From the NCBI GenBank assembly GCA_001430745.1, contig KQ482018.1:15825-47368 (forward strand): a stretch of DNA of 31,544 bases, written 5' to 3'. This stretch comes from Auxenochlorella pyrenoidosa. Taxonomy: Eukaryota > Chlorophyta > Trebouxiophyceae > Chlorellales > Chlorellaceae. Below the pieces are notes generated by a model, which saw only the letters and a program-made list of their open reading frames with translations, had not been told where the DNA came from and searched no databases. The translations under genes were made by a program, and so were the position numbers. Below are positions 2,347 through 31,544 of the stretch, one piece after another (position 1 is the first letter of the stretch; the number at the start of each line of letters is the position of its first letter).

Positions 2347-2351
2347 TTACA
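2347..2351 (-). terminator. Candidate poly(A) signal TGTAA of the PKS gene
   Basis: TGTAA on the minus strand is the usual green-algal polyadenylation signal. It lies about 270 bases after the PKS stop codon, and I saw no other copy between it and the stop. It implies a 3' UTR of roughly 290 bases spanning 2623 to about 2335. Confidence 0.5.
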
Positions 2352-2623
2352 TTGGGTGCAGGTAGTAAATCAAATTTACCATTGGTAAGCCTGCATTGTA
2401 GGCAAAAAACATGGAAGCACGAAGACGCTATGTCACTGGAAGAAGCGGGCAAAGCAGCGGGAACAAGCTTGGGGCAAAGAGGTGCGTAGCGTTGCACAAA
2501 CGTGGAGTGGTCTTCAGAGAAAGTGCAGCAGCAGGTTGTTTTCAGCAGCAAAGACGTGTTGAAAATGGTTAGCATGGAGAATTATAGGGGGGAGAAAGGG
2601 AGCGGCGGCGCCGCCCAGCTGGC

Positions 2624-3248
2624 TCACTGCCAGGCGTCCAGCTTCAGCATCCACACCGCCTCCCTGGGATCGTAGTGCACAAACACGCCGCCCATGCGCT
2701 CAGACGCCTCCTGCAGCCGCTTCCTGAAGGCCGCCACCAGCTTTTGGTCGTCCGGCTTCTTCACCACCATGCGGCGGAAGGTCAGCAGTGCGGGCTGGTT
2801 CAGGCCGCGGCCTGGGGGCAGCAGCGCGCGCGTCGCGGCGGCGGCGGCCTTGTCGCCGTCGCTGGCGCTGCTGCTGGGGGCAGGGTACAGGTCGATGCTG
2901 CCTCTCTCGATGGAGATGAGCTTATCCAGGTCCAGCCCACGCAGGTCGACTGCAGGGAAGGGTTGGCATCGGGGCAAGGTGAGCGGAGCGGGGAGGTGAG
3001 CGGGCACCATGCCATGCCCAGCACGTCGCCAGCGACGGCAGCAAGCGCGTCTTTCAGGCACGCTTTCCGTGCGCTTCCCGCCCTGCTGCCCCCTCTGGCC
3101 ACCCACCTGGTTTGAAGAAGGCGACCTCTCCCAGGTCTTTGCGGCCTATCACAAAGCGCGGCACCGCCTTGAGCTGCTCATCGGTGGCCCGGGCCAGCTG
3201 TCGGATGGACGGCACCGTAAAGTACTCTGGCAGTGTGAGGGTGGGCGC
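2624..3248 (-). other. C-terminal Nup98 autopeptidase-like (peptidase S59 / Nucleoporin2) domain
   Basis: These are the last 155 residues, on exons 3516-3107 and 2949-2624. The order of motifs follows the autoproteolytic domain of Nup98: [19 protein letters not shown], then [68 protein letters not shown] and the closing strand [11 protein letters not shown]. In Nup98 this domain anchors the protein to the nuclear pore and cuts itself between His-Phe and Ser, with the last strand spaced W-x5-H-F/S. Here the spacing is kept (W-MLKLD-A-W-Q) but His, Phe and Ser are Ala, Trp and Gln, and the stop codon follows at once. Self-cleavage is therefore not expected. The function in a PKS is unknown: docking, localisation or product release are guesses. 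The fusion to the ACP is within one exon, so it is not a gene-model error. Confidence 0.82.
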
Positions 3249-6200
3249 ATTCTTATTCACCGGGCGGGCCGGCTTGCCCGCTTTGGCCGCCGCCGCTGCC
3301 GTGGCTGCGGGCTCCCCCGGGGCTGCCTCTGCCGGCTGCCTGCCACCAGCAGCAGAGGCACCCTCGTCAGAAGCAGCCGCAGCCGTGTCGGCGGCCGGGT
3401 CTGGGGCAGCAAAGCCGAGGGCGGCATCGCTGACGCGGCCCGCGAGCTCTTCTGCCACCGCCTCAATAGTGGGGAAATCGAACAGGAAGGTGGCGGGCAG
3501 GTCGATGCCGAAGGCGCTGCAGCGGGCAGGGTGCGGGAGGTTCGGGGTGAGTGGGTGGGTGACTGGGTCGGACCAGGTGCGGTTGACGTCGACGGGCCCT
3601 GTTGTTTAGCGGCTCGCCAGCCTGTGTCCAGCTTGTGGGGATCCCCACGTACCACCCACGCCTCAGCCCTTGGTGTTTGGCTGCCCACAGCCCACTGTGA
3701 TGTGCCCACCCACCTGCCCAGCTCCTTGCGCAGCTCCAGTGCACCAAGCGAGTCCATGCCCGCTACTGACAGCGGTGTGGAGGCTGCCACCTCCGCGCCG
3801 CCCAGCAGCCGGTGGACGCACTGGCGCACCTGCAAGTGCGGCAGGTGGGGGTGGGGCAGGAGAGGCCAGAAATTTATTGTATGTACGCTGATCCAAACCG
3901 CAGGGCAGCGTGTGCACGGCGGGTCTGTGCTGCCCAGTGCCGTGCAGCTGGGACCCCCCCTATCCAAAAAACTGGCTCGCGTATGTAACCCCCGGCCCGC
4001 CACCCCGGCTCCTTACCGTGTCTGTCACAAGCTCCAGCTTGCGCTTCAGCGTCAGCGCAGGTGCAGGCGGCGGCGCCGCGCGGCGGGGCGCTGCTGCCAC
4101 AGCCCCCGCCGGCGTCCGCTGCTGCCTGGCCGGCGTCGAGCGTGTGCCGGACGCTGGCGCTGCCGCCGCACTGCGCTTGGCAGCGGCAGCCAGCGACTCT
4201 GCTGCCTTGCCAGCCACAAATTCTGCGATTTCTTCAATGGTAGGGTAGTCGAATACAAGCATGGCGGGCACTTCGGAGCCCACAAGGTCTGACACCTGAC
4301 GCCGCACATCCAGCGCGCCTGCAGGGCAGGGCAGGCCCGATGTCATGCGGACGTCGTGTGGACATCGCGTGCTCCTGATGATGTACAAAACCTGCCTAAT
4401 CGAGCAGACCGGCACGCAGGTGTATGCCCAGCCTTCCAGCCCCAAGGCGCAGCATGCACTCACCCAGGGAGTCGAGCCCGGCAGCCATGAGTGCCTCTGA
4501 TGCGCCCACCGGCCGGCCCACCGCCGCCTCGACCAGCGCGGCAATCTGGGCGGCAAAGAAGCCGGCTCGCTCTGCTGGAGGCAGCGTGTGCCATGCAGGC
4601 AGGTCGGCTGGGGCTGCAGCTGCGGGCTCTGCGATAGTGCTGGCAGCTGGCAACGCTGCTGCCTGGTTGGCGGCGATGCTCTGCCGTTCCCGCCCAGCCG
4701 CGGCTGCTGCCACAGCCGCAAACTCGGCGTAGAAAGGCTTGTGCTGCCTGCCGCCCACCAGGAGCCGCTCCCAGGTCAGCCCTGCAGCCATCACAGTGCC
4801 GCTGCCTGCTGCCACAGACAGGGACACCGCCTGCTCCAGGGCGGCCAGCCCCGGCGCCGGCTGAATTGCCACAATACCCAGGCGCTGCAGCCGCGCCGCC
4901 ACGGCTGCATCGCTGGCAGCCATGCCGGCGCCGCCCCAGGCACCCCAGGCAATGCTGCAGGAGGGTGTGCCCTGCACGGCATGGAAGGAGACAGGTGGAT
5001 GCGCTTAGGCAGGGCCGTTGGAAAGCTGCAACAAGCCAGGAGGCAACCCGCTCCTCCAACAACTTGCGTAATTATAATTGCTGCCTCTCAGTGCCCAGCC
5101 CACCTGCTGCTGCCAGCTGTCTGCCAGCGCATCCAGCGCTGCATTGGCGGCTGCATACGCGGCCTGCCCGCCGCTGCCCAGCAGGCCGGCGATGCTGCTG
5201 AACAGCACCAGCTGGCCCGCCGGGGAGGCGGCGGCCAGGCTGCGCTGCAGCCTGCGGGCGGCCAGCGGCTTGACTGCCAGGCTGGCACGCAGGTTGGATG
5301 CAGTTTGGTTGGAGAGCACGGCGTCCTGCGACAGATATGCCACAGGCAGATGCAGGGGTAGGTGAGAGGCAAAAGGTGCGGCGCTGTGGGAGCTCGCCCC
5401 CCCCCCCCATGCAGCACTCAGAGAGCTCTACTGCGCCTGCATGCGTTGGTCCGCCCTTGAGGGCTCACCCTGAGGACACCAGCCGAGTGCATGATGGACC
5501 CCACGTGGATGCCGCCAGCAGACAGCCGGCCCGCCAGCCCCGCAACGTCAGCAGCCACGCTGGCATCGCATGAGGCCACCGTCAGCTGCGCCAAGCTGCC
5601 GGCCGTCACGGCACGCCGCCAGGCGCTGCCCAGGGCAGCCTCCAGCTGTACCAGGCCAATGCTGCGACCCAGCAAGATTATGTGTGGGCTGTTGGTTCCT
5701 CCAGCGCCGCCGCTGCTGCCGGCTGCCAGCTGCTGGGAGGCAATCAGGGTGCCCAGCGCCCCGAGGCCACCAGTCACCAGGCATGCACCGGCGACAGCTG
5801 ACCCTTGTTGCGGCCTGCTGGCTGGCGCAGCGGCAGGCAGCAGGCGGGGAGCTAGGAAGGCGCCGCCCGCCTGGCTGGGCCCAAAGACGTCGCGGAATGG
5901 CAGCTGCTGGTCTTCCAGCGGCCCTTGGCCCGGCTGCTGTGGCGCGGCGCTGCTGTGTGCCCAGCCCAGGTGTTCCGCATCCTGTGCAGCCACCCTGACC
6001 ATGCCCAGCAGCAGGGCTGCCTGGTGCAGCTGCCGACGCGGCGCGCCAGTGCCAGCGCCAGCTGGATCTGACAGGACAGCCGCCGGGGTGTGCAGGTGCA
6101 GGGCGGAGGCGGGGCCCCCACCCTGCACACGCTGCTGCATGAACTGCAGGTGTGCGGCGGCAAAGCCGGCATCCGACTCGCTGCCTGCATGCACAGCAAC

Positions 6201-9200
6201 AGCCTGTGGCTTGCTGGTGCTGCCTGCTTGCTCGAGAGACCAAGCAACTGCTGCTGCTGAGGGCCGGCTGGACAGCTGCCAAGCCGAAGCGCCAGCGCTG
6301 CTGTGTGCCTGCCAATCAACGGTGTAGAGCAGCTGCGATGTCGGCTGGGCAGCCGCTGGCGCGGGCCTGGCGGGCGCAATCTTGGAGACCAGGCCGGCCA
6401 GGCACATGCCAGCGGAGCAGTTGCCAGGAAGCCAGCGGATGTTGTTGGTGGCCGACAGATCCTGCTGGCTGATGCCGCACATCTCCGCTGCTGCCCACCC
6501 GCAGGCCGGCTTCCCTGCTGGGTGGGAACATGCATGGATGCATACGCTCAGCAAGCGATTACTCCAGCCAGCATGATCTCCCAGCTCCAGCAGCATTTCC
6601 AAGCAGGCGTGACAGAGCACTGGCAAAGCGCAGCGCTCCCAGACTCACCGTCCCGGGCAGGCAGCGCCAGGGAGCCTGCGCCCACAGGCACCCGGCTGAC
6701 CACCTCGCCACCCGGCGTGGGGACGGGCGCCAGGTGGATGCTGGCATCAAAGGTGCCCGGGTGCAGAAGATACCTGCACGTAGGCGCAGCAGAGGATCAG
6801 CAAAGTAGAATCGTGATGAAGGCGGCCAGGTGGGCGCAGCAGAGGTGGTGCACACAGCAGAGGCGGCTCCCAGCGGCAGTATCCGGCTGCTGCAACCCCC
6901 GGCAGCGGTCCCTGCTGGAAGGCTCACCCAGCAGTCTCCTGCTTGCTGGCGCCGACCACGGCAAGGTTGTGGCCCAGGTTCCTGGCTGGGCTGGGTGGCA
7001 GCAGGAGTGCAGCCGCGGGTCTCTGGCCTGCTGCGGCAGCACTGGTGGGAGCTGCTGCTGCCTGCGAGGCCGCCACAGCCTGCAGATGCGGGCTGTGAGC
7101 GCCGCTCAGCACCTGCAGCACTCCTGTCCTGCTGTCGACAGTGCAGCGCAGCAGGAAGCTTCCGCCCTGGGCACCGGCCAGCATGCAGGGTGCCAGCACC
7201 GCCAGCGATGCCAGCGCAGGCACCGCAGCGCCGCTGCCCGAGTCGGAAGCTGCGCAGGCTGCTGCTGCCGCCGCTGCCAGCTCAAACATGGCTGCCGCGG
7301 GCAGCAGCGCCCTGCCGTGCACAGCGTGGTCGTGCAGCCACGCCAGGCTGGCAGCAGACAGCTCTGCAGCGCACTCTGACAGCCTGCCGCCGCTGCTGCT
7401 GGCACGGACGGTGGCTGCCAAAAGGAGCGGGTGGGGAATGGGGCGAGGCCAGAAGTCGCCTCGCTGCCAGGCGCTGCCGCCGCCAGCTGCCGTCGCTGCC
7501 AGGCTGTCGGCTGCGCCGCTGCCGCCCTCTGGCATGGACAGCAGAGCGTGGGCGTTCACGCCGCTCATGCCAAAAGAGCTGGTGCCCGCCAGCGGCTGGG
7601 CCCCCGCTTCCAGCAGGCTGGCAGCTGCGCCTGGCTGCCTGCTGGGCGCGGCCGCCATGCTGTGCCTGCTGCGCCACTCTCCCAGCGCCGCCGCCACGTA
7701 AGGGTTGACCTCACGCAGGTTCACAATGGGCAGCAGCAGCTGTGCCTGCAGGCCCGTGGCCGCCAGCAGGGCGCCCGACAGGCCCGCTGTGCCCTCGGTG
7801 TGCCCGTAGCAGCTCTTGCTGCTGCCCAGGGGAAGCACCCTGGCTGGGCCTGCGCCGCCTGGCTTGCTGGCCGACAGGGCAGAGCCCAGGGCCCCAACCT
7901 CAATGGGGTCGCCCAGAGGGGTGCCTGCAGGAGGAGAGCGCAGAGAGCCAGGAGAGGGTGGAGGGATACGGTTTTTTTTGTTGGTTGTTGAATGCGCATC
8001 GTGCTGAGTTGGAAGTGTGGTCTTGGCTGCAGCCAGTCTTGAACAGAGCATTGCAAGCGTTCAGTGTTGCACGGCCCCACCTGTGCCGTGCATGGACACA
8101 AAGCCGACGGCCAGGGGCGCGGCGCCCGCGGCGCCCAGCGCGGCTCGGACCAGCGCCGTCTGCGCCGGCCCGTTGGGCGCCGTCAGGCTGCTGCTGCGCC
8201 CGTCCTGGTTGATGGCGCTGCCATGCACCAGGCCCAGCGGGCTGCTGCCCGCCTCGGCTGCCAGGTCAGCCTGCTGCAGGAGCGCCACCGCGATGGCCTC
8301 TCCGCGGCCGTAGCCGTCGGCAGAGGCGTCCAGGGTCTTGCAGCGGCCGACAGGGGACAGGGCTTGCAGCAGGCAGATGCGGGCCACGGTCTGTCGGGAA
8401 GGGGGAGGCAGGGGGTGCGGTGCGCAGAGTTTAGAAGTGTGGGTGACTCAACTCGGGCGGCCACAGGCACGCTGGAGCGGCGCACAAGCTGGTACAGCTG
8501 GCAGCTGGCAGCCCCACCTGCGCAATAAGGTTGACCTGCACCCCGCCCGTCACGGCGGCGGCGCACTCGGCTGCCAGCACCCCCGCGTGCGCCTGGTGCA
8601 GCGCCACCAGCGAGGAGGAGCAGGCGGTGTCGGTGCTGACGCAGGGGCCCTGCGCAAGAGGGAGCAGGCCAGGGCAGAAGCTCAACAACGCAGCATGTAC
8701 CAGTGAGGGCCGAGACGCTTGAGATGCATGTTGAGAAAGCAGGCAGTGCCTCTGTGTAACACAGAGGGCAGGCAAGTAAGCTACGCGCTGCCCCCACCTG
8801 CAGGCCAAAGGTGTAGGAGGCGCGGCCGACCAGGAAGGACAGGCCGTGGCCCAGGATGGCGTTGGAGCTGGAGTCGGCCAGGCCCAGGGGGCCCAGGATG
8901 CCGTCGAGGTACTCTGCAAGGGGCGGGGGGTGGGGTGAAGGGGTGGGTGGAAGCCATAGTCAGGTAGATGACCCGACTCAGCTGAGCAAGGTGGTACAAG
9001 CATGGGCAGCGGGCCAGGTATGCAGGAGACTGCATATCCTCCCTCTCAGCCACAAGCACAGGTGCGCAGCAAGCTCAGTGCGCACCGGTGTACATGCAGC
9101 CGAGGTAGACGCCGACAGAGGGGCCCACCGCGGCCGCCGCGCCCGCCGAGGCCGGCGAGGCCAGCAGCTCTGCCGTGTGCTCCAGCAGCATGCGGGCCTG

Positions 9201-12200
9201 GGGGTCCAGGCACGCCGCCTCGCTGCAGCCAGGCATACGGTCAGGGGGTCCATTCAAGGCTTGCGAGGCAGGTGGGCACAGCCAGAGGCGAGCATTGTTC
9301 AAGCCTTGAATGAATTGAGCCTCTAGCAGCCAGCAGGTGACCTGGGGAGGCGCAGCGGGACACACAGCATTCAGTTTTAACAAGGTGCAGAGCTGAGCCC
9401 CCGAGGCCCCTGAACACACCTGGTGCTGAGCCGGAAGGCGGCGGCATCAAAGGCCGCCAGGCTGTCAAGCCAGCCACCCAGGCGCACAAACATGCGCCGC
9501 TCGCCGGCGTCTACAGAGTCACAGTGGGGCAGGGGTGGGAGGTCGAGGGGGTCAGTCCACGCGATGCGCTCTTTCAACTGCCGGCTGTGTTCCAACAATG
9601 CATGCACTATCTAGCATGGTGAGATGCACAGCTCGCGCGATCCCAGGGAGCGCGGCGCCGCACCTGGGCTGTAGCAGGCTTCGATGTCCCAGCGCTGCGG
9701 CGGCACCGGCGACGGGATGTTGGCCCCTGCTGCAAGCGCCGCCTGGAAGCCCGCCAGGTCAGCATTGCCTGGTCCGGCTGTGGGGCAGGCCAGCGGCAGG
9801 CCGGCGGGCAGCGCAGCGCAGCTGGTGGGCGAGGGATACCGCCCAGAGGCGGCCACCAGCATGGTGAGGCCGCACTCTGCAGGGGCGCCACCCTCCTCTG
9901 CAGCCAGCAGGCCTAGGCCGGCAGGCAGCAGCGCTGCCACGTCGGCGGCAGCCTCCAGCTCGCTGCCCGCCCCTGCCATGTTGTCGTCCACGTAACCCGC
10001 CAGGCTGGCAAGGGTGGGATAGTCAAAGGTGACGGTGGCGGGCAGCTGCAGGCCAAAGGCGGCGCCCACGGCGTTGCGCAGCTCCACAGCACCCAAGGAG
10101 TCCAGGCCCGCCTGCAGGGTGGGGCGGTGATGAGCAGGGGGCAGAGAGAGTAGGTCAGCAACTCGTCATGATGGGCCAGGGGGTGCAAGGCTTTGGCATG
10201 GACATGCGCGTGAGGGGCCCGGCAGTGTGTGAGCAAGCACCGCTGCATCCCTTGCTGCCAGGCCCTCCTTCGAACCTCCATAAGAGGCTGCTCCGCCGGC
10301 GGTGCCGCGCCCAGCACGCCCGCCGCCACCTCTGTAAGCTTTTGCAATACAGCTGCCGCTCTAGGCTGCGCGCTGGCCAGTGCGTGGCGTGAGGAGTCAG
10401 CACGGGGGCGCAGCTTGCCCCGCCGGCCGCCCTGCGGGGTGGACGCCTCCCAGCCGCCCTGCCCGATGAGCGCTGCCGCCTCTGGGGTGGCTGCCGCCGC
10501 CTTGCTGGCAGGGAGCAGTTGGGAGTGCACATAGGCGGCCAGAGCTGCTGGGGTGGGGTAGTCAAAGGTCACGGTGGCGGGCAGCTCGACACCAAACTGG
10601 GCGGCCACCGCGTTGCGCAGCTCCACAGAGCCTGCAGCAGGCAGGGGATGAGGGTGGCAGGGATGAGGAAGGGATGGAGATTCGGGGATAGGGAATAGGG
10701 ATAGAAATGGGGATACGCTGGCGGTAGCTTTGAGGGGGGTGCCACCGTGCTGCGAGCTAGCAGCACCTTTGAAGCCCAAGCATGCTCTGTTCGCACAGAC
10801 AAAGCCCACTGACCAAGCGAGTCGAGGCCTGCGGACATGAACGCGGCAGTCGGCTCCATGCTGCTGCCAATCAGCCCCGCAACCAGCGCCAGCAGCTGAT
10901 CTTGGATCTGATGCACGCTTGGGCCTGCTGTTGAAGCGGCAGCGGCGGCGGCAGCGGGCTGCAGCAACGCTGCTGGCGTCGAGTCGGTGGCAGCCAGCAC
11001 AGCACGGCGCCCGCCAGCTGTGCTGTTGCCGCCTGCGGGCATGAGGCCTGCGAAGAAGGCTGACCGCTGCTGGGCAGGGCTCAGCATGCGCCGCCAGTCA
11101 ATGGCCACGATTGGCGCGAGCGCTGCAGGGGCTGCAGGCGCCGTGCTGCCACCACCCATCAGGCGGGTCAGCAGGCAAAGGCCATCCTGCGGCTGCACCA
11201 GGCCAACCCCCTTTGCTGCCAGCCGAGCCGCCACCGCGGCCGTGGCCATGCCGCCACCCGCCCAAGGGCCCCACTGCAGGCTGACTGCCGCGCTGCCCTG
11301 CAGCTGGCGCCAGGCAGCCGCGGCATCCAGCACCGCATTGGCTGCGCCATAGTTGGCCTGCCCTGCATTGCCCAGCAGCGCCGCGGCGCTGCTGAACAGC
11401 AGGCACTGCTGCAGGGGCTGCGCGGCCAGCGCTGCCCCTGCAAGTTCCAACCCGCTGAGCTTGGGCGCCAGCGCGGCGCGCAGCCGGCCAGCTGTCTGCT
11501 GCGCCAGCATGGCATCGCGCAGCACGCCGCCAGCATGGACGAAGACCCCGGCATCCCTGTGCTGTCCCCCTGCCGCCGCTGCCACATCTGCCGCCGCCGC
11601 CGCGTCGCACTGCACGACCGTTACGCATCGCGTGCTGTCGACCAGGGCGGCAGGCAGGCGAGCCGCTGCCGAGCGCGCCCAGAGGCAGACGCGATCAGCC
11701 CCTGCAGCAATGTCGCTGTCCTGTGCTGCCAGCCAGGTGGCGACCAGCAGGCCCAGGGCGCCTGTGCCGCCAGAGACGGTTGCACTGCCGCATGCCACAG
11801 GACGCGTGACGGCAGCGCCTGACGGCAGGCTCTGCTGCTGGCCGCTGCGCAGGTTTGCCAGCAGCCATGCGCCCTGCTGCAGGCGAGGCATGGTGTAGAC
11901 ATCGCTGGCAGGGGCTGTTGCTGGCAGGCCGCATGCAGCCAGCGCGCTGCATGTAACACTGCCCGCCAGTTCCCTGCCCTCTGCGGCAGCGCAGCGCAGC
12001 AGGCCATGCACCGCAGCGGCCACTGCTGCGCCAGCTGCGCCACCCCGGCTTGCTGCCGCTGGCGCGGCACCGCAAGTGTCCTGTGTTGCTGCCTCCAGCT
12101 GCAATGTGCCGCTGGGTTGCTGCTGCAGGAAGCGGAGGGCGCGCTGTGTGCTGCGCCACACCGCTGCTGGGACGGCGGGGCTGCTGCCGCGAGCGCCCAG

Positions 12201-15200
12201 GAGCCGCACGGCGCGATCCTGACCAGACAGGCTGACTGCGGACCTTGAGCGCTGCAGAGCCTCGCCAGCGGCAGAGTGCGCCTCCCAGTCCACCCGATAG
12301 CTTGCCAGGCTGGCCGCTGCCTTTGGCGCCGCGGCTGCGACAGCAGCAACAGGCTGGGCCTGGACCGACTTGAGCTGCAGCTGGTGCAGCTGGCATGCCG
12401 GCCCATTGCCAGACCCAGCACCATGCAGGAGACCAAAGGATACCAGTGTGCTGCTGCTGGCAGCGCCGGCACTGTCGCTGCTGCTCATGACCGGCCAGCA
12501 TGCTCCGCCCGCTGTGCCCTGCTCTGGGGCATGGAAGTAAGCCGCCCCTGCTGGCACCCGCAGCTGCACAGCATGGCTGCCGATGGCGCCGCTGGCAGTG
12601 CGAGCCTCCGGCACCGCAAAGACTCCAAAGTGGGTGGCTGCATCGATGGCCGCGGGGTGGGAGTGGAAGCCGGGGGCTGCCAGCTGGCCGCGCAGCTCCA
12701 TGCTGCCGCATGCTGCTGCTGGGACCAGCGCGGGCTTCGCAGCCCCGACCAGCGAGGCAGCAGCCATCCGCTGCAGCACCGCGCTGTGACGCCCTGCAGC
12801 AGGGGTCTGAGCCGCTGCCACAGGCAGCTGCACGTGGCTGCACACCGCCGCCTGGATGCTGGTGGTTGCCGCTCTGCCAGTGGCGCGACTCTGCAGCGAC
12901 ACCGTCGGCAGTGCTCCAATGCCCTGGCTGACCACGCAGCGCACCAGCGGCACCGCTGCGTCGCCGCTGCTGCCGCCGGCCGGCAGGGGCAGGGGCGCCG
13001 GAATGGCAATGCCACACAGCGCGGCCGCTGTGCTGCCCATGCTGCTGTCCACCTTGGCGTCATCCAGCAGGCACTGGGCTGCGGCACGGGCGGCCTCCAG
13101 CATTGCTGCGCCCGGCACGATGATGCGGCCTTGCACCTGCGGGGTCAAGCGGCAGACAGCGGGGGGGTTGTGTCCATGCCCGGGTGCACAGCAGAACTTG
13201 CTGCATGCGCCCCAGCACGACAGAGGAGGGCCTCCACATTTTCGAGAGGGCAGGTGCAGCAGGCGCGCTGGGACAGCATGCACAGCAGGCTCGCCAGGCG
13301 AAATGTTCCCTAAACCAGCAGCGCTGTCACCGCACCTGGTGCTCCCACAGGAAGGCCAGGGCTGGCCGACCCAGGGCCACCTCAAAGGCAGCGCTGAAGC
13401 GGGGGCCACCGGCACCAACTGCCACAGAGGCCAGCAAGTGGTGCGCTGCCGGCTGGTACCAGTACCGCCGCCGCTGCCAGGCAGCTTCTGCTGCGTCGCC
13501 GCCGCCCGGCGCCCCTGCGTGCTGCACCGCTGGCGCCAGCTGGCTGCTCAGCACGGCGTGGGCGTTGGTGCCCTGGAAGGCAAAGGCGCTGCAGCCGGCG
13601 TGCAGGCTGCCGCTGGCGGGCAGCAGCCCGGGGGCCGCCTGCCGCGCCGCCGCAAAGCTGCTGCCGCAGCTGCTGCCGCAGCTGCTGCTGTCCTCCAGCA
13701 CGCCGGACACATACGGGTTGGGGTTGATGAGGTGCAGCACGGGGCTGCGTGCCAGCGCCTGCAGCCGGGCCAGGGCGCGAGACACGCCCACCAGCCCGGC
13801 AGCCGTCTCGGCGTGGCCGAAGCACGACTTGGCTGCGGCCAGCTCGGTGGCGGTGCCTGCCCCCGGAGGCCGCTTGATGACGGCCGCCAGGGCCCCCACC
13901 TCGATGGGGTCTCCCAGCGCGGTGCCTGCAATGTGGAGGAGAGCGAGGCACCAGGAGAGCTTTACCAGGCGCACCAGGGCAGCAGACAGGCAGGAGAGCA
14001 GCAAGGCAATCATGCAGCCTGCTTCCAGTTGGGAGCTATGCAGACCACCTGCTCTGCCAGCACTTTCTGCTCCCCGCAAGCCCCCGCCCCTCCCACCTGT
14101 GCCATGCATCTCGACAGCCCCCAACTCGGCGGGGCCCAGCCCAGCAGCCCCCGCCGCCGCCACAACCACCGCCTGCTGGCTGGGGCCGTGCGGCGCCGTC
14201 AGGCTGCTGCTCCGCCCGTCCTGGTTGACTGCGGTGCCCGCCAGCAGCAGCGCCATGGCCTGGCCGGCAGCAGAGGCGTCGGCGGTGCCAGCGGACGCCG
14301 CCTGCATCATCACCAGCACTGCCGCCTCGGCTCGAGTGTACCCGTCGGCAGCGGCATCCAGCGTCTTGCAGCGGCCATCGGGCGCCAGCATGCCTGCGGG
14401 GGTTGAACGGGGTGTGCTTTGCATCGAGGCTGAGCCTCAACAGCGGAGCAGGAACCAGTAGCTGTAGGTTCGTGCGCACAAAGCCCGCACCAGGCCCTGG
14501 CTGCAAACCAGCAGCGTGCGCTGCCGCCCCGCCATTCCCCGCCCTCACCCGCTGCGGCAAACATGGCCGTAGTCTCCCAGTTCATCGGCAGGTTGACGCC
14601 GGCGGCGAGGCCGCGCGTCGCGCCGCCGCCCCGCACCGCCGTCGCCGCCACATGCAGCCCCACCAGCGAGGAGGAGCAGGCGGTGTCCACGGTGACTGCC
14701 AGCCCCCGCAGTGCGTAGCAGTAGCTCAGGCGGCCGGCAGCGACCGATAGCGCGCGGCCCGTGCCAATGTAGCTGCTGCCAGCCGCCACGGCCGCCGCGT
14801 TGCCAGCAATCACAGCTGTCGGCTCGCCCAGCTTGGCGATGCCCACTGCCACTGCGGTCTGCTGCCAGCCCAGGGAGGACGGCCCCCCAAAGCTGCTGTC
14901 AGGGGTCAGCAGGCCTGCCGCCTCCTCCAGAAGCACCCGCTGCTGGGGGTCCAGAAGGGCAGCCTCTGCAGGCCAGGCAGGGGGCAGGAAGCAGGGAGCA
15001 TTCGTTGTGAGTGGTGCGATGGTTTAATGTGCAGCCTTGAAGCTGTTCTGTGCTGCATGCACAGAACAGGCAAGTCTGCAGCGGTGTAAAACAGGCAGGC
15101 AAGCAAACCCCTGCAAGCAACGCACCCGAGGGGGGGATGGCAAACGCGGCGGCGTCAAAGCCCGCCCAGCGCAGCACAAAGCCGCCAAAGCGAGCGCCCA

Positions 15201-18200
15201 GCAGGCCCGCCGCACGCGGCGCCTGGCCGCCCAGGCTGCCGGCCGCCCTCCCAAAGTCGGGGTCCCAACGGTCCAGAGGCAAAGGCTGCATGGCATCGGA
15301 GAGGCCGGCTGCCAGGCTGCCGAACAGCGCCTGCGCTCCGGGCGGCTCTGCCAAGCGTCCCCGGACATCTGTGACCATCAGCAGTGCCTGGCTGGACGCA
15401 ACCGGCACCAGTGCGGCCGTCCCCAGGCCGGCTGCTGCCTTGGTGACAGCGCCATGTCCCGAGCTGGCCGGCTGAGCTGGCGCCAGCTTGGAAGCAACAA
15501 AGGCGGAGATGGCTGCCACTGTGGGGTAGTCAAACACCAGTGTGCCGGGCAGGGAGCAGCCCACGCGGCGGGCGATCTCGTTGCGCAGCTCCACCGCGCC
15601 TGCAGGGACATCAATGAAAAAGGCAAGGGTCAAAGAGGTGTCAACAGGCTGTCAAGCAGGAATACCAGACACCAAAGGCAGGCGTTGGATCGAAAGTGTG
15701 ATGTGCACTAGTGCTCGTCTGGCATGTGCGCAGCTTGGTGCAACCCTTGACCAACGCAAGCGCAAGACGGCCTGCCAACACCCCCACTCACCCAGCGAGT
15801 CGACGCCTGCGCCCACCAGCGGGGTGTCTGGCCCAGGGTCCGACCCCAGGACCACCACAACCGCCTCGGTGACAGCAGCAGTGATGGCCTCCGCAGACAT
15901 GCCCGGTGCAGCCGGCGCGGCGGCACCAGCGACCGCAGGCTGCGCAGTGTTGCTTTCCGGGGCGCTCGCCAGAGGCTGCTGGACCCTCTGTGAGAGCGCT
16001 GCAAACAGGGGGCTGCCCGCCTGCAGGCGGTCCCAGAAGAACACGGCGCCCACCAGGGCGGGCGGCACGGCACCGGCAGCAGAGTTGCCCCCAGCGAGGG
16101 CGCCCAGCCAGGCGGACAGGGCGGCCATGCCTGCGCCAGGCTGGATGGCACCGAAGCCAAGCCGCTCCATGCGCTCCAGGCCTGCAGGACAGCGGGGCAG
16201 CAGCAAGCAACCAGCTCGGTGGCCAGTGAGCCCAGCAGCATCGACCAAGCTGACCGCCAGCATGCCAGTGGAGAATACAGAGTGCTGTTCACATGGACGC
16301 AAGGTGCCCTGCTTGCCTGCGTGTGCCGCCATACCGGCGCCGGCCCAGGCGCCCCAGTGCACAGTGAGGCCCGGCAGGCCGGCCGCCTGCTGCCTCTCGG
16401 CAGCGGCACCCAGCGCCGCATTGGCTGCAGCATAGTTAGCCTGCCCGCCGCTGCCAATGGCCGCTGCCACCGAGGAGAAAAGCTTGATGGCACGTAGGGG
16501 CTGCAGCTGCGCGGCTGTGCCAGCCAGGTTGGCAGCGCCGCCAAGCTTTGGAGCAAAGACAGTGCGCACTCCTGCACTTTTAAGAATGAGGATGAAAACA
16601 ACGTGGGTTGCCACAACCTGCAAGTGCGTGTCGTGCAAACATGGCACAACCAGGCCAGATCCGTCATGACGAGGTGCTGCAGGCCGGGCAGACGATCCAT
16701 AGTGCTCGACCTGCCTGAGAGGGTCTGATTGGGCAGGGTGGCGTCAGCCAGCACGCCGCCAGCATGCAGCACGCCCGCCAGCGGGACAGCGCCGCCAAGC
16801 ACGGCCGCCGCATCCGCCGCCGCCGCTGCATCACACATCAGCAGCGTCACGGCCGCTGGCTCGCCGCTGCCTGCTGCCAGGCTGGCGGCGCTGGCCCGGC
16901 CGGTGCGGCCTAGCAGCTGCACACGCGTGGCGCCAGCTGCCGTCAGCCAGCTGGCGGACAGCGCGCCCAGCGCTCCAGTGCCTCCGCTGATCACCCAGCG
17001 GCCCTCGCTGGCAGTGCGGCTCTTGAAGGAACCGCCGCGGGGGCTGCCAGCCCTCTGAGCTGGGACAGCATGGCGCAGCATCTGCGGTTGGCCCACCAGA
17101 CCGGGCCCCAGCTGCACTCCGTGCTGGTCTGTTGCCAGCTCTGCAGCGCTGCAGAAGCTGGGCCCAGCGGGCCGCTGGCAGTCGCTCAGCACAGCGCCCC
17201 AGCAACGGTCTGGCTGCTCCACTGCTGCCACCTTCATGAGTGCTGCCAGCATTGCGCTGCTGCTGCTGTCATGATGTTGCCCTGCTGGGGAGGCAGGGGC
17301 AAAAGAGCCCTGGACCTGCACAGTGGGCATGCTGCCGCTGCTTGCCAGCACCCGCTGCAGCAGCTCAATGCCGCCTGCTACAACCTCTGTGCTGCTGGCG
17401 GCGATGCCTGGTGCAGGCATGAGGCTGACGCTTCCTGCTGCTGCCAGGCGAGCACCAAGCCCGCCACCAGCACCAGCTGCAGCTGCTGCATCCAGGGACA
17501 CGCGCAGGCCGTAGCCCGACGCGTTCGCTTGACTGCAGCCAAAGCTTTCGCACAAGGCAATGCAAGGCAGGGACTCTGCTGCCTGCCACTGGATCTGATA
17601 GCTGAGAGCGTCGGCGCTGGCAGCGTTGGTGCTCGCCACTGCTGTCTCAGCCTGCTGCCCAGGCGCAAACGGCCGCAGGCACAGCCCCTCTGCAGCGAGG
17701 GCGCCGCCACGTGCAAACTGTGCCGTCGCAGAGAGCATGGCCAGGCTGCCAGGCAGTGCGCTGACCAGGGAGCTGCACCATGAACCATCGCTGCCGGCTG
17801 CCGCGGCTGCTGAAGGCAGAATGGCGTTGGCGGAAGCGATGGTTAGGGCAGGGCTGTCACCAGCTGCTGCCAGGTGAACCAGTGCTGCGTCAGCTGCCGC
17901 CGGGTGCACCAGCCAGCCAGCGCCGCTGTCAGCGCTGTCGCTGTCCAGTTGGCCCAGCAGGGGCTGAGGGGCGGCCTGATGCCAGCCAAAGAGCTGCTGA
18001 TGCAGCCCATGAGCTCCAGCAGCCTTGGTTGCGGGCTCTGCCAAGACAGCTGCCTGCCGCATTCCTGCAAGGCTGGCTGCCAGGTGCTGCGCTCCGTCGG
18101 GTGAGGCAACTGCAGCCTGGCCGCTGCCGAGCTGCAACGTGCATAGCATGTCGCCGCCAGCTGTGATCTGCTTAGGTGCTCCCGCTGTCATGCAGGCAAG

Positions 18201-21200
18201 GCTTGCTTGCAGGCCCAGCCCCGCGCCGCTGCCACCGAGCAATGCTGCTGCAGCTGCCAGCAGCAGCTCAATCAGGGAGGTGGTGGGCAGGGTGGGGATA
18301 CCGCCTGCGACGTGGTCCCGCAAGAACGCCAGCCTGGCAAGCTGCAGGCTGCAGCTGAAGGTTGCTTGCGAAGTAGCCCCCCTGCCGCTGCCCACTGCTG
18401 CACTGCAGTGCAGCAGCATGGGGTGTGGCGCCGGGGCAGGCCAGTGCCGCTGACGCTGCCAGGGCAGCGCAGCAGCTGGCGCTGCTGCCACATGTGCATC
18501 CACCCCCTCGGTTGCCAGCAGGATGTGGGCATTCACACCGCTCATGCCGAAAGAGCTGGTGCCCGCCAGCTGCCCAGTGGGCCCACGCCCTGCTGGCATG
18601 GGGCCCGACTGCCGCGGCAGCGCCGCTGCCAGGCCCTGCCTGCTCCTCCAGTCCTCCAGGGCCGAGGCGACATAAGGGTTGAGCTCCCGCAGGCCCACAA
18701 TGGGAGCAAGGGACCGGTGAGCCTGGGCGCCCGCCGCCAGCAGCAGCCCAGCAAGGCCTGTAGACAGACGCAGAGTAGGCACACTTAATACGCGGCTGGA
18801 GGGCGCACAGAAGTGCGCATGCATGGAACATCAGGCGCGTCAGGCGGGAGGGCATGGCACGATGCGGCTGTACACCCTGCACACCTGCAGCCCCCTCCGT
18901 GTGGCCGTAGCAGCTCTTGTTGCTGCCGATAGCCAGGGTCCGGGGCTGCTGCCCTGCTAGGGCGCCGCCCACAGCGCCCATCTCTGCAAAGGAGGAGTTG
19001 CGCAGGAGGTGGGAATATGGAGGGATTCAGGTGCCGCTTGGGCAGCCACTACTGAAGCTGCGCGAGACTTCAGCAGAAGTTGGGCAGGGCTTACCAATGG
19101 GGTCGCCCAGCGGGGTTCCAGTACCATGCACTGCCAGGTATGCCACGTCAGCAGGGCCAGCCCGGCCGGCCGCCAGCGCGGCCGCCAGCAGCTTGTGCTG
19201 GGCGGGGCCGTTGGGCGCGGTCAGCCCGCTGCTGCGGCCCGCCGTGTTCACTGCACTGCCGTGCACAACAGCCAGCAGGGCTGCGCCGGAGCCGCCGCTG
19301 TCGCTGCCGCCACGGTGCTGCGTGAGCACGATGGCGGCAAAGCCCTCGCCGCGGCCGTAGCCGTCGGCAGAGGCGTCGAAGGTCTTGCAGCGGCCCACGG
19401 GGGACAGGGCCTGCAGGGAGGGCAGGGCAGGAGCAATCCTGGTCAACAATCTCTTCAAACACTTCCGATTGCTGGCGGGGCCAAGCACCAAAATCGAATG
19501 GCCTGGCATGCCTCCGATGCTTTACACCTGCATCCTCTGACCATTCCTCTGCCCCACCTGCAGGGCCGCAATCTTCACGCCCGTCTTGCTCGCCAGCAGC
19601 GCATTGACGCCCGCCCCCAGCGCCGCGGCGCACTCGCCGCGCCCCAGCGCGGCGGACGCCAGGTGCGCGCCAACCAGCGAGGAGGAGCAGGCGGTGTCGG
19701 TGCTGACGCAGGGGCCCTGCAGCCCGGGAGGAGATTAAAAGGTAGCAACTGTCGTAGAAAAGCGGTGTTACTGAGCTCCGAGACTGGCAATAATGGGCAT
19801 GCTGTCCAGGCAGCCTCAGCAGGAGATCCTCCACACGGCAGCGACAACGGACTACCCACCCTGCCCCCCCACTTGCGGACAGCACACTTGCCTGGAAACC
19901 AAAGGTGTAGGCGATGCGGCCAACCATGAAGGGCAGGGTGTTGCCGGTGCTGGCGCTGGCCGCGGTGTCAGAGGCACCCAGCAGCGGCAGCAGCTCAACG
20001 TACTCTGCAGGTTAGCAGAGGTAGGGGGTGGGATGGGGGTGGGTGGCAAGAACAGCAAGTGGCAAGAGCAGCAGGAATGCAACCAGCGGGTCGGACAGGC
20101 AGGGTGCAGGGAGTGCAGCAGGGCAGGCAGGGCAGGGGGCAGCAGCTGGCAGCGATGGGCATACAAGGCACGGACATGCAGTGATTTGCCTGTGCATGGT
20201 GACCCTTGCATCTTGCTGGCACTCACCGGAAGCCCACATGCAGCCAACAAAAACGCCGGTACTGCTGGCAACGCTGCCATGCAGCTGCATGGCAGACCCG
20301 GCAGGCTGGCGCGCGCCAGCGTCGGCCAGCGCCTCTGCCGAGTGCTCCAGCAGCAGGCGAGCATGCGGGTCCATCAGCGCCGCCTCGCCGGGCACCAGCC
20401 GGAAGGCAGCAGCATCAAAGGCGGCCACCCCGCCCGCCAGCGTGGCGGCGAAGCGGGTGTAGATGGTGCGGCTGCCTCCAGCGGCGGCAGACTGCTCGGG
20501 GTCAAACAACACATCTGCAGAGGAGCATAGAGCAGCAGGGGAAGGCCTTGGATGCCGGTTCAAAGGCAGGGGGTTCTTGCTCACCCAGGATTCTGCAGGA
20601 GCTGAATTGCAAACGGATTAACCCGCCCACGCCTCTTGCCTGTGTCCCACTTTGCCAGGGGCACCACGCCCTGCACGTCGCAGCCGCTGGCAGCCTGCTG
20701 CCAGAAGCCCGCTGCGCCTGCTGTGTCGCCATTAACAGAAGGGAAGGTAGCGGCGGTGCCAGCCACAGCGGCCACGGGTGCAGCACCAGCTGGCAAGGCC
20801 TGGATCGGAGCAGACACAGCCAGCGCCTGGCTGGTAGCAGCGGCGGCAGCGGTACTGCTGGGCAGCTGGCGCACTAGCCAGTCGGCCAGTGCAGAGACAG
20901 AAGGGTAGTCAAAGATGAGGGTGGCCGGCGCCTCCAACCCAAAGCGTTCCGCGAAGGCATTCCTGCAGGGCGGGGCGAAGCAAGGGGCCGATGCTCAGGG
21001 TGGTGCATCGCGCGTGCTGCCAGCGAGTCATCAGAGGCGCTATATGCACCGCAAATGGCTGGCGTGCTAGCAAGAGGGCCCAGAACACGCAGTAACCTGG
21101 CAGCCCTCCCCACCTGAGCTCCACAGCTGCGATGCTGTCCACGCCCGCCTCGGCCAGCGGCTGCTCTGCAGACTGAAGCTCTGCGCCGCTGACGTCCGCA

Positions 21201-24200
21201 ACCAGATTGAACAGCCGCTGGCACAGCTGCTCCCGGTCTGGCAGGCTGGGAAGGGACGACGAAGGCAGCATAGACATGGCAGAGCTGCCAAAGGCATCGG
21301 CAGTGGCGTTGTCCTCGCTGCCGCTGCTGCCGCTGTGCCTGCTGAGCTCCGCTGCCATGTGGGCTGCCAGGCTGGCGGGGGTGGGGTGGTCAAACACAAG
21401 GGTGGCTGGCAGCTCCAGGCCGTACTGAGCAGCCAGGCCATTCCTGCAGGCACAGAACAGGCAGAGGCAAGGGGAGAGAGGCTCACAGGCAGGCCGTATT
21501 TGAAGAGATGCCAGATGGAAGGCGCGGAGAGTGGAGTTCATCAGTGCACACAGACTGAGTGGAGCATCCCTGCCGATGGTAGGCAAACAAGCACGGTGCG
21601 CCCTGGCGGTACCGCCCACCTCAGCTCCACGGTGCCAATGCTGTCCAGACCGGCCTCCAGGAAGGGAGTGTCTGCGGCTGCCGCTGCGGCTGCCGAGTCG
21701 GCGCCTGCCAGGTCAGCAAGCAGGCGCAACACCTCTGCCAGCACTGCATGCTGGGAGACGGCAGCAGCAGCAGCGGGCGCCGCAGCAGCTGCCTGCGCGG
21801 CGGCAGCGGCTGGCGGGGAGGGCTGCTGCTCAGGCCCAAGCGGGCGCACCTCGCCAAAGAAGGGCAGGTCGCGCCGGACGGGGCTGGCCAGGAAGCGGCC
21901 CCAGTCAAAGGGCGCGACCAGGCTGGCAGCCGCCGCGCCCGCCTCTGTCAGCAGACCCTGCAACGCCGCCAGCCCGCCAGCGGGCGCCACCGCGCCATAC
22001 CCCTGCTGCTGCAGCCGACGCAGCAGCAGGGGCGAGGCAGCTGCCATGCCGGCGCCGGACCAGGCGCCCCACTGCGCCGAGCTGCCGGCCCTGCCCTGCT
22101 GCTGAAGCAGGGCAGCAGACGCGTCCAATGCGCTGTTTGCGGCGGAGTAGCCGCCCTGCCCAGCCGTGCCAAGCACGCCGGCGATGCTGCTGTATAGCAG
22201 GAAGCGGTGCAGGGGGTGGCACGCGGTTGCTGCCGCAAGCTGCTGCTGCCCAGACAGCTTGGGCGCCGCCACCCAGCGCAGCGTGGCAGCCGTCTGCCGG
22301 GGCAGCGCTGCGTCTGCCAGCACGCCGCCGGCATGCAGCACCGCGCTCAGCGTGCCGCCCCGCATGGCCGCCAACACCGCAGCTGCCGCCTCCTCGGCAG
22401 CGGCCACATCACAGCGCGACATGCTGACGAAGCAGGGCGTGTCGCCGAGGCCACTGCCAAAGTTGCTGGCGCTGGCGCGCCCGCTGCGCCCCAACAGCAC
22501 CAGGCTGCGCGCCTGCTGCTGCATCCATGCTGCGGTGAGCTGGCCCAGGCCGCCCAGGCCACCAGTGAGCAGCACGGTGCCTGCCTCTGATGCCTGCCTA
22601 GCAGCATGCGCAGGGGCGGCAGCCGCTGGCAGCAGCACTGGGACCGACTCCACGGAACCATGCAGCTCCGAGCCAAACTGCCTGCTGTCCTGGACTGCGG
22701 AGGCCGCAGCCGCGTTGCCGCTGTCGACAAAGCAGACAGCTGCGCCAGGGGCCAGCACCTGCTCCGAGGCTGCCACCTTTAGCAAGCCGTGGAGGGATGC
22801 TGCCGCAACGGAGGCTGCAGCTGCGCCTCTGCCTTGGGCGGCGATGCAGGTGGCAGCGCCTGAGCTGGCTCCCAGAAGCCACAGAGCCGCGCCACGGACC
22901 TCGCCGCTGCCACTGCTCTGCAGCGCCTGCAGCGCCTGAGCGGGGGCAGCGTTCGCATTGCTGCTCGCCACCACTGTCACCTGCTTGCCGCCGGGCATGA
23001 GTGCAGACAGCAGCGGCGCCCTGGACGGTGCAGTGCCGTGGCTGCACGCTGCTGCCGCCTGCCAGGAGACTGCATACAGCAGCTGCTGCTCCCGCTTCTC
23101 GTTGCCTGCTGAAACTGCAGACCTGGCAGGCTGCAGCCTGCGCTGCATGCCGGAACCAGCAGCCTTGGCGACCAGGCCCGCCAGCGCAAAGCCACCGAAG
23201 CCCGCCTGGCCGCAGTGGCAGGCAACCGTGGTGACAGACTCTGCAGTCGCGGGCAGCGTCACCCGCACCGCCGCCCAGGCGCCGCTGCTGCCGCCGCTGC
23301 CGACCCGGCTGGGGGCGGTGTAGGCGCCAGCCGCCACCGGGATGCGGGCAGTAAGGGTTCCCCCTGCAGCCGCGCCGGCGCTGTCCAGCATCTGCCCGGC
23401 GAGAGCAGAGAGATGCAGGCTGGCATCGGCTGGGGCTGGGTGCTGGTAGTAGGCTGCTATGGCATCCTCTGCTGGAGCCGCCAGCTGGGCCGCATATGCA
23501 GCGGATGGCTGCCCACCAAGTGTGGCGTTGCCGGAACCAAACAACAGACGGGCTGCTGCCGTGCTGGCCGGGCAGGAAGCTGGCAGGCTGCAGACTGTGG
23601 CCACAGCTGGTGCTGAGGCAGCAGCGGCAAGGCTGGCTGTGAGGTGCGCGCTGCCAGCCCTGCTCACAGGCTGCACGTGGACCGTGCCATGCACCCTGCT
23701 CGCCACCGTCTCCAAGAGCAGGCCCCCGGCGCCAGCTGCTGGCAGCACGCACGGCGACACAAACGCGGCCGAAGCCACCGCCGGCAGGAGCGCTGGGGCT
23801 GCCGCTTCTGCCAGGCTGGCCCCCGCGCCCGCTGCCATCTCCAGCATGGCTGTGCCTGCCAGCAGGGGCCGGCCGGTGACCTGATGCTGCCACAGGTAGG
23901 CCAGGGAGGCAGTGCTGGTCAGCAGCGCCGCGAAGCGCGCGTCGCCAGAGGCCGCAAAGCCAAAGCGCTGCAGCAGGCGGTGCGCCGGTGGCAGCGGCCA
24001 GTACCGCGCCTGCTCCCAGGGAAGCGGGACGGGAATGCCATCGGGCTGGACTGCTGCCGCCGCCGCCGCGGCTGCAGGCGCCAGCAGGGCATGGGCGTTC
24101 ACGCCGCTCATGCCAAACGAGCTGGTGCCTGCCAGCTGGCTGCCAGGGTGCATCAGCGCCGGGCCAGCAAGCCGGGGGATGGCGGCTCCGCTGGCGCTCG

Positions 24201-27200
24201 CGCCGCCGCTGCTGGCGGCGCCGGCAAAACCGCTCAGCGCAGCCGCCACGTAAGGGTTCATCCCCCGAAGGTTGACCACAGGCGGTGCTAGCTGCTGTGC
24301 CTGCGCCGCTGCCGCCAGCAGCAGGCCGGTGATGCCCGCTGTGCCTTCTGTGTGGCCATAGCAGCTCTTCACAGAGGCAAGGCTGACAATGTTGCTGCCG
24401 CTGCTGTGCCCGCCGGCAGGCGGCAGGGCAGATCCCAGGGCCCCCACCTCAATGGGGTCGCCCAGAGGGGTGCCTGTGCCATGCACCGCCACCAGGCCCA
24501 CAGCGCCTGCCTGCAGCCGCCCAGAGGAGAGGGCGGCTGACACAAGCATCTGCTGGCTGGGGCCGTTGGGGGCGGTCAGGCTGCTGCTGCGCCCGTCCTG
24601 GTTGACTGCACTGCCACAGAGGCGCGCCACGATGCCGCTGCCCGTCGGGGTGGCAACGCCTGGCCGCACAAGCACCAGGGCCGCAAAGCCCTCGCCCCGG
24701 CCGTAGCCATCAGCGGCAGCATCAAAGGACTGGCAGCGGCCCACGGGGGACAGCGCCTGCAGGGGTGGTGGGGCCACTGGTGCTGAGTTAACGCCATGCT
24801 TTCAGACAAACACAATCGCAATCTCCTAGCCCTGGTTGGTTCCAGCGTTTGTTGGCAACCAGATGGGTAGCAGGCCGAGGCGGGATCGCGCTCAAAGAGA
24901 GCAGCCCCCACCTGTAGCTGGCAGATGCCTGCTGTGGTCTCGTGCCACAGCATGGCGTTGATGCCCGCCGCCACCGCCGCCGCGCTCTCCCCGCCCACGA
25001 TGCCTGCAACAGAGGATCATGATCATCAACAGTGATTGGCCAGGCAGGCAAGCATGCAGGCCAGTGGTTGGAGGCGTCGAAACGTCAAAGCTACGGCTGC
25101 TGAACACACAGGACAGGTGACTGTGATGATATGAATTGGCTTGGGGGCCCACCTCGGTGCGCATTGTGGGTGGCCACCAGGGAGGAGGAGCAGGCCGTGT
25201 CGATGCTGTTGCAGGGCCCCTGCAGGCCAAAGGCGTACGCCACCCGCCCGCTCTGGTAGGGCCCGCCGTTGCCTGCAGCAAAGCAGAGGACAGGCGGGGC
25301 AGGGCGGAGATGCGCAGCACACTGGGGTGCTGGGACGACACGCTTGCATGCGCACAACAGCAAGCGAGCGGTTGCCAGCTCCACCATTCGCACTGCTAAC
25401 AGAGCAGAGGGGGAGAGGGGTCACCCTTGGCCATAGTGGCCCTGGCGGAACATGCACGCTGCGCGCGCAGCGCACCAGTCATGACGGGCCCGCTGTGCTT
25501 CTGCCCCAGCGCCACGCGCAGCACGCTCATGTAGTCCCAGAACATGCAGCCGACGTAGGTGCCGGTGGCGGGTGCCAGGTCGGCAGCATGGAATGCAGCA
25601 CCTGCAGGGGGCAGGGGGTGCGGGAGTTGAGCGGGAGGAGGGCAAGGGGTGGGTGGGGGAGCAGTGCGCGAAGCAGCTGGTGAGCCACTGGAGGGGCTGC
25701 TCTCGTCGGTGCAACATGGCACCAGCTGGGCTCTGCCTGTTCGCAGAGGCAGTCCCATGTGCAGCATGGCCAGGCAGGTTTCATATACAAAACCGCAAAA
25801 CCACAACACTACAAAGCTCACCCGCGGCCGAAAGCGCCTCCTGGCTGGACTGCAGCAGCAGGCGCGTCTGCGGGTCGAGCGCCGCAGCCTCGGCCCTGCT
25901 GAGCCGGAAGAAGGGCGCATCAAAGAGCTCCACCCCCTGCAAGCATGAAACCAGAGGGTGTTGCACGCTTTGCGGCGGGCAGACAACGGCGGGGCCCGTG
26001 GGATAGGCATGGCAGTGCTGGACAGCACACAGAGCACACAGCAGCGGCGCCTGATGCCCACCATGCAGAATTGTATTGCAGGAGAACTGACCTCGACAAA
26101 GGTGGCAAAACGGGCGTAGCTGCGCCCAGGCGCCGGCCCGGCGCTGTAGCACCACTCCAGATCCCAACGCTGGGCGGGCACCAGGCGCTGAAGGTTGGCG
26201 CCCGCCGCGGCTGCGCCCCAGAACGCAGCCATGCCAACCGCGCTGGTGGCGGCGCTGCTGCCCGAGGCACCCGGGTACAGGCACCCCACTCCGATGACGT
26301 CGGTGGCAGCGGCTGCCTGCTCGTCAAAGTGGAAGGCATCGCCGGGCAGCACGCCGCCCTGCAGGACATCGCCCTCGGGCTCAGCATCCGCTGCCAGCTG
26401 GCGCCAGATGTGGCCAGAAAGCGCCCCCAAGGTGGGAAAGTCAAACACGGCGGTGGCAGGCAGCTCGATGCCGAAGCGAGCAGCGAGCGCATTGCGCAGC
26501 TCCACTGCACCGAGCGAGTCCAGGCCAGCCTGCAGGGGGGCAGAGGTGAGGCAGGAAGCGCAAGATTCAAGCCAATCAGCCCCTGGAGGCAAGCACAGGA
26601 TGAAGCAGGCACGGCTTGCGATGCTCCTTGTGCACCTTCCAGCCCCAAGCTGCCCCGCACCTCCATGAGTGGCTGCTCGCTGCCCGGCACAGCACCCAGC
26701 ACCTCTGCCGCCGCTGCCGCCACCGCCTCAGCCACCACAGACGCAGGCTCGGCGTGCACTGCGGCCTTGCCGCGCCCCTGCTGCCACTGGCTGGGGCCGG
26801 CTTCCAGCTGCAAGGCCTGGCTGCTGCTGCCGGCAGCGCCGATACGCCAGGTCTCCTCCTGGTCTGAGCCGGCAAGCCTGACGACGGCAGCGGCGGCCTT
26901 GCGCGGCGAGGGCAGGCGGCCGACAATGAGCCTGGCTACAGCGGCCGGGGTGGGGTGGTCAAAGGCAAGGGTGGCAGGCAGGTCCAGGCCAAAGGAGGCG
27001 GCAAGCGAGTTGCGCAGCTCCACTGACCCCAGGGAGTCCAGGCCCGCCTGCAGGGGTTGGGGAAATGGCAACAGCAGGGCAAATCACAGAGGTTGAGGAA
27101 GGGCTTCAGAATTTGATGGCGTGATAGTGACAGGACCAAACAGGGGAGGAGAGTGTGTGTGCCAGCGTGCTGCTCAGAGCGGCAGGCAGGCTGCGAAACC

Positions 27201-31470: not shown

Positions 31471-31480
31471 CTGCACGGGA

Positions 31481-31544
31481 GACGAGTTGATGGAGGGTGG
31501 GGGGGAAGGGGGGTGGGGGGGGNGGGGGGTGAGNGGTGGGGTGG
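31481..31544. other. Intron edge, G-rich with ambiguous bases
   Basis: This is the acceptor-side part of the intron before the first visible PKS exon, whose acceptor AG lies at 31472-31471. From 31498 on it is nearly all G on the plus strand (C-rich in the transcript) and contains N at 31523 and 31534, marking uncertain base calls. Confidence 0.7.

Follow-up and report, generated by a model that had tools for sequence, protein, structure and literature searches.

A polyketide synthase of Auxenochlorella pyrenoidosa that ends in a Nup98 autopeptidase-type domain, a possible docking module

The window, meaning the whole stretch of DNA analysed here, comprises 31,544 nucleotides of Auxenochlorella pyrenoidosa (C35:15825-47368 in a genome of 51.6 Mb and 65 contigs). 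It is flanked by long runs of N, which cover at least C35:10000-15824 on one side and, except for a few bases, 47369-61651 on the other. Profile matches in its open reading frames showed that the minus strand codes for a modular type I polyketide synthase (PKS), in which KS, KR and ACP pieces, and also DH pieces, recur and KR is found five times. The N-terminus of the enzyme lies beyond the N run that follows the window, and ten open reading frames searched past this gap for the PKS start gave no Pfam match. The window ORFs that were scanned gave no acyltransferase match. A whole-genome search with PF00698 gave zero matches anywhere; this says little, since the genome should contain a malonyl transferase gene and the search is thus insensitive here.

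The tail of the PKS was modelled from its last seven exons, all with GT..AG borders, and amounts to 1,017 residues up to a TGA stop codon at 2626-2624 (Table 1). Its architecture is KR-ACP-ACP-linker-Nup98 autopeptidase-type domain: the KR is followed by two ACPs (GLDSLG and GMDSLG), after which an Ala/Pro-rich linker leads to a domain of some 150 residues. The three exons that carry the last ACP and the terminal domain join in frame. A single open frame, uninterrupted by stops or introns, runs through exon 3516-3107 from the closing half of the last ACP into the opening part of the Nup98-type domain, which bears out what the preliminary description had said of this exon. That description had placed the two parts in the same frame, correctly, but 60-odd codons apart; 75 are counted between TIEA and LPEYF. 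The intron inside the domain falls between FFKP and VDLRG, a position that differs from every intron placed in the Nup98 domain of the alga's own Nup98. Downstream of the PKS, a TGTAA, presumably the usual green-algal polyadenylation signal, lies at 2347-2351 on the minus strand, about 270 nt past the stop codon. A 310-codon open frame with hydrophobic stretches and no Pfam match follows at 1301-2230 on the same strand.

Table 1. Features of the window PKS (window positions) and related features on other contigs
Feature	Position	Strand	Basis or remark
Last exon: second part of Nup98-type domain (starts VDLRGLDLD) and TGA stop (2624-2626)	2624..2949	minus	splice borders; PF04096 profile 42-140
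Intron of 157 nt, GT..AG, within Nup98-type domain	2950..3106	minus	splice borders
Exon: second half of last ACP, Ala/Pro-rich linker, first part of Nup98-type domain (from about 3239)	3107..3516	minus	single open frame; PF04096 profile 3-41
Exon: first half of last ACP	3714..3829	minus	joined model
Exon: second half of first terminal ACP, inter-ACP linker	4017..4318	minus	joined model
Exon: KR end, first half of first terminal ACP (GLDSLG at 3' end)	4464..4971	minus	joined model
KR exon, last module	5104..5325	minus	PF08659 62.2 bits; splice borders
Exon: first part of last-module KR (6638 is where the model begins)	5469..6638	minus	PF08659 27.9 bits
Upstream modules of window PKS (KS, DH, KR, ACP pieces)	6924..31542	minus	profile matches
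Thioesterase of C56 PKS	C56:321590		about 4 kb beyond last C56 KS match
Thioesterases of C8 PKS	C8:1156343 and 1151108		about 3 and 8 kb beyond last C8 KS match
Modelled first exon of C56 PKS, acidic peptide	C56:287007-287066 (L014:8008-8067)		gene model

The preliminary description had proposed that a Nup98-type domain ends this PKS and that the exon after 3516-3107 completes it. A profile search agreed on both points. The joined tail matched PF04096 (Nup98-96 autopeptidase S59) with 79.9 bits (E 2.7e-22; cut-off 28.4 bits) over positions 3-140 of 148. Each of the two exon frames alone also exceeded the cut-off, with 31.8 bits. PF04096 was the sole profile to match in the joined tail. Sequence comparison with the PDB pointed the same way: 23 of the 24 matches at E<=1 were Nup98, Nup145 or Nup116 (best 2e-14), the remaining one being RD3 at E 0.71. 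When a profile of seven sequences, the alga's own Nup98 included, was used instead, all 23 matches at E<=0.001 belonged to the Nup98/Nup145/Nup116 family. A structure model of one relative (P0004, below), built from five sequences, was unusable, with a mean pLDDT of 40.1. The PKS domains and the Nup98s share a pattern of YxTxP, IGR/K, DL, GL(N/D) and W, and the PKS domain is 27-40% identical to the three Nup98s compared. Genome-wide, PF04096 matched five exons at two places, namely the window PKS and a Nup98-96 gene on C10. The latter has FG repeats and an intact cleavage site (HFSKYGLLDSEEEEE). Unlike it, the window domain is preceded by PKS modules rather than FG repeats and followed by a stop codon, with no Nup96 part behind.

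The fusion is shared with other algae. When the tail was searched against 5.8 billion proteins, 1,392 candidates emerged and, among these, five matches, each of them a PKS tail with two ACPs and a Nup98-type domain in one predicted chain: P0001 from Chlorella sorokiniana, P0002 from Coccomyxa sp., and P0003, P0004 and P0005 from short contigs. The idea of looking for the fusion in PKSs of other chlorophytes, put forward at the outset, was therefore fruitful in Chlorella sorokiniana and Coccomyxa. All five relatives exceed the PF04096 cut-off, and KR was matched in four; P0001 lacks this match because its gene model starts too late. P0004 and P0005 are 80% identical to each other. Inside the Nup98-type domain of P0003 there is an in-frame insert of 26 residues that resembles an intron left in place, an error to be expected when a prokaryote gene finder is applied to an algal gene. 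Across the six tails, the window's included, the Nup98-type domain was the best-conserved segment, with a mean pairwise identity of 53%, compared with 48% for the first ACP, 45% for the KR end, 42% for the second ACP and 37% for the linker (segment borders set by hand). A tree of nine sequences separated the three Nup98s, as one group, from the six PKS domains (ultrafast bootstrap 91, FastTree 0.97). This fits a single origin of the fusion, which so few and short sequences can suggest rather than prove.

Other searches added little to this set. The last exon, used against longer proteins, gave one relative among 235 candidates with a carrier of 2,970 residues, which was P0002 again, and none among 85 with a carrier of 9,458 residues. 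Together the protein searches span lengths from about 560 to 16,500, with less than the whole domain as the query for the longer ranges. Pattern matches in viral contigs (37) and in prokaryote genomes (24) included no confirmed relative. The fusion is already visible in the precomputed Pfam annotation of public proteins. We also considered whether the assembly or the gene model had wrongly joined a PKS to a nucleoporin gene, a chimera for which the position of the window as an island between N runs might speak. This explanation is effectively refuted, since the junction lies within one exon, five other predicted proteins carry the fusion, and the Nup98-type domain is conserved better than the rest of the tail. 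We therefore regard the fusion and its conservation as firmly established.

Nup98 cleaves itself between the Phe and the Ser of an HFS site, and the alga's own Nup98 reads WRFEVEHF before the cut and SKYGLL after it. The Ser is absent from all six PKS copies. Two of these (P0002 of Coccomyxa and P0003) keep HF as their last residues and end exactly in DHF. In the other four HF is gone and the chain ends 1-4 residues past the cut site, with DAWQ in the window, DTWL in Chlorella, DVWRR in P0005 and DVWRRRR in P0004. With no Ser and with ends at or near the Nup98 cut site, the PKS domain would be made in roughly the shape of a cleaved Nup98. An active autopeptidase was rejected because the HFS site is gone. 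The term "autopeptidase-type" holds for the ancestry of the domain, but not for its motif or activity. The net charge has changed as well: the PKS domains are basic in all six copies (+4 to +10), whereas the three Nup98 domains are acidic (-1 to -6). Basic domains of this kind would suit a more acidic peptide ligand.

Matches to KS and KR define three multimodular PKS loci in this genome, on C8, C35 (the window) and C56; isolated matches were a single KS on C49, another at C56:694.8 kb and one KR on C16. The thioesterase profile PF00975 has three matches genome-wide, all beyond the last KS of the C8 and C56 loci (Table 1). The preliminary description had remarked that the Nup98-type domain sits where a thioesterase would normally be. 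This proved apt, as thioesterases end the two other multimodular loci and are absent here. A thioesterase release domain was sought in the window tail without success: no thioesterase profile matched, PF00975 has no match on C35, and no Ser or Cys is invariant in the six copies. The domain therefore stands where a docking domain would, at the end of a subunit, behind an ACP, in a subunit that has no release domain. At the opposite end, the C8 PKS begins with an AMP-binding (loading) domain. Among the 14 of 42 candidates scored, none lay near the window PKS or the C56 PKS, and seven ORFs taken from before the first C56 KS and from within that KS gave no AMP-binding match. The C8 PKS (C8:1151108-1227594, minus strand), which resembles published Chlamydomonas PKS1-type enzymes, looks complete, with both a loader and a thioesterase. 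Chlamydomonas PKS1 was reportedly the subject of a study by Heimerl in 2018.

The C56 PKS has a thioesterase end and no loader that we found, and the window PKS has no release domain and a start that lies in a gap; the start of the C56 PKS was therefore examined. Its modelled first exon, from the ATG at C56:287007, codes for MPGLDLDDFDLLDSGEEEEE and is predicted to splice via one further exon into the KS. The start codon is itself modelled, and in-frame ATGs lie 231 and 255 nt upstream. The peptide resembles the N-terminus of the alga's own Nup96, SKYGLLDSEEEEEG. This likeness was spotted by eye and then scored, and the patterns used later were written after the sighting. Ungapped BLOSUM62 scores were computed over 171,566 six-frame windows, taken from the window itself and from eleven loci, two of which share part of its sequence; this comparison set of about 106 kb represents 0.2% of the genome. 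Within it the C56 peptide ranked second, after Nup96 itself (score 35; the third had 23), and when the 20-mer was shuffled 20,000 times, 19 of the shuffles reached its score. When SKYGLLDS alone was the query, the peptide came fourth of 187,441 and 108 of 20,000 shuffles were as good. Whole-genome protein searches with the C56 or the Nup96 peptide returned only self-matches, so that, judged across the whole genome, the resemblance lacks significance. A preset motif, [STAC][KR][YF]G[LIVM], sought in six sources, matched at no PKS start, that of C56 included; its two matches were in an ACP of the window and in L014, the locus of the C56 start, about 4.7 kb before that start. No such motif occurred in the locus that holds the C8 PKS start, which has a loader. 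A borderline PCI-domain match (22.2 bits, cut-off 22) was noted in the same region (L014:7202-7531), in a gene that ends about 480 nt before the C56 PKS start on the same strand. Its product looks like a PCID2/TREX-2 protein, which would make it another nuclear-pore-related neighbour.

Nup98 has a second job besides self-cleavage. According to PMC11148069, the vertebrate domain binds the N-terminus of Nup96 or the propeller of Nup88, and residues 1-20 of Nup96 fused to RFP were its partner in a pull-down. Based on the conservation of the fusion, the high conservation of the domain within it, the loss of HFS and the presence of thioesterases at the ends of the other two PKSs only, we propose that the PKS domain keeps this binding job. 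It would act as a C-terminal docking module in the place of a thioesterase and grip the N-terminal peptide of a partner, for which the C56 PKS, with its thioesterase, its apparent lack of an AMP-binding loader and its Nup96-like start, is the best candidate. We give this reading a probability of about 0.5. On binding, the tandem ACPs of the window PKS would come to lie beside the first KS of the C56 PKS, and the polyketide chain would pass from one polypeptide to the other, a nuclear-pore protein pair having been reused for docking. The pairing with C56 is inferred from one genome and a modelled start codon. More tentative still, and in our judgement somewhat less than an even chance, is the wider suggestion that green algae moved both halves of the Nup98-Nup96 pair into PKSs, so that a dead "cleaved" domain and a Nup96-like peptide would form a eukaryotic docking pair.

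Other roles must be weighed against docking to the C56 PKS. The domain might recruit a free enzyme or helper that bears an acidic peptide, such as a thioesterase, a trans-acyltransferase or a tailoring enzyme. The window PKS has neither a terminal thioesterase match nor an acyltransferase match in the ORFs scanned, and so partners in trans are needed regardless of what the domain does; no candidate of this kind was seen, although none was sought systematically, and we consider recruitment doubtful. Alternatively, the domain could still bind its original partners, the N-terminus of Nup96 or the propeller of Nup88, and thereby tether the PKS to the nuclear pores or envelope. It belongs to the same family as Nup98, the cell has a Nup96 of its own with the N-terminus SKYGLLDSEEEEE, and the vertebrate domain binds both proteins (PMC11148069). 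Nevertheless, the reversal of net charge in all six PKS copies relative to all three Nup98s, together with several PKS-invariant positions that differ from Nup98, FVHYD among them, argues indirectly against it, and a tether appears unlikely. Conversion into a new chain-releasing or cyclising enzyme would suit the position at the chain end, and FVHYD has the same His and Asp in every one of the six PKS copies, whereas S, D or E takes the place of this His in the three Nup98s. However, the alignment of the six domains contains no invariant Ser or Cys and the HFS site is gone, which makes a release enzyme very improbable. The preliminary description had offered docking, tethering and release as guesses; docking is now favoured, and release has lost ground.

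As a docking module, the domain has both precedents and peculiarities. It is homologous to the domain of Nup98, Nup145N and Nup116 over most of PF04096, and is distinguished from it by its loss of HFS, its setting and its basic charge. Like the chlorophyte trans-AT enzymes (Chlamydomonas PKS1, CvaPKS1), the window PKS is large and modular, with KS-DH-KR-ACP modules and no AT match in the ORFs scanned, but it ends in a Nup98-type domain and not in a thioesterase. Chlorophyte modular PKSs are described as trans-AT in PMC4661987 and PMC7073580, and the former raises non-covalent assembly of several PKS chains as a possibility only. The proposed arrangement, a small fold that grips a short charged peptide, recalls the docking of bacterial PKSs and NRPSs by SLiM-beta-hairpin pairs, as presented in PMC9113145. 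It differs from them in its fold and its nuclear-pore origin, and its polarity is opposite, the fold being carried by the C-terminus of the upstream subunit and the peptide by the N-terminus of the downstream one. The terms "nucleopor", "alga" and "eukaryot" do not occur in that review, and "nucleopor" is likewise absent from the main text of PMC4661987, PMC7073580, PMC12633428, PMC6972661 and PMC9113145. A published description of a Nup98-type domain on a PKS was not found among the literature matches listed, where the texts that mention both Nup98 and polyketide synthase were rice-blast reviews.

In conclusion, the fusion clearly exemplifies the move of a nuclear-pore binding domain into metabolism. 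A conserved, nucleoporin-derived end would offer a concrete answer to how split algal PKS chains find each other, and it may provide a new docking pair for PKS engineering. If the proposal is true, a eukaryotic docking pair made from nuclear-pore parts joins two megasynthases into one assembly line.
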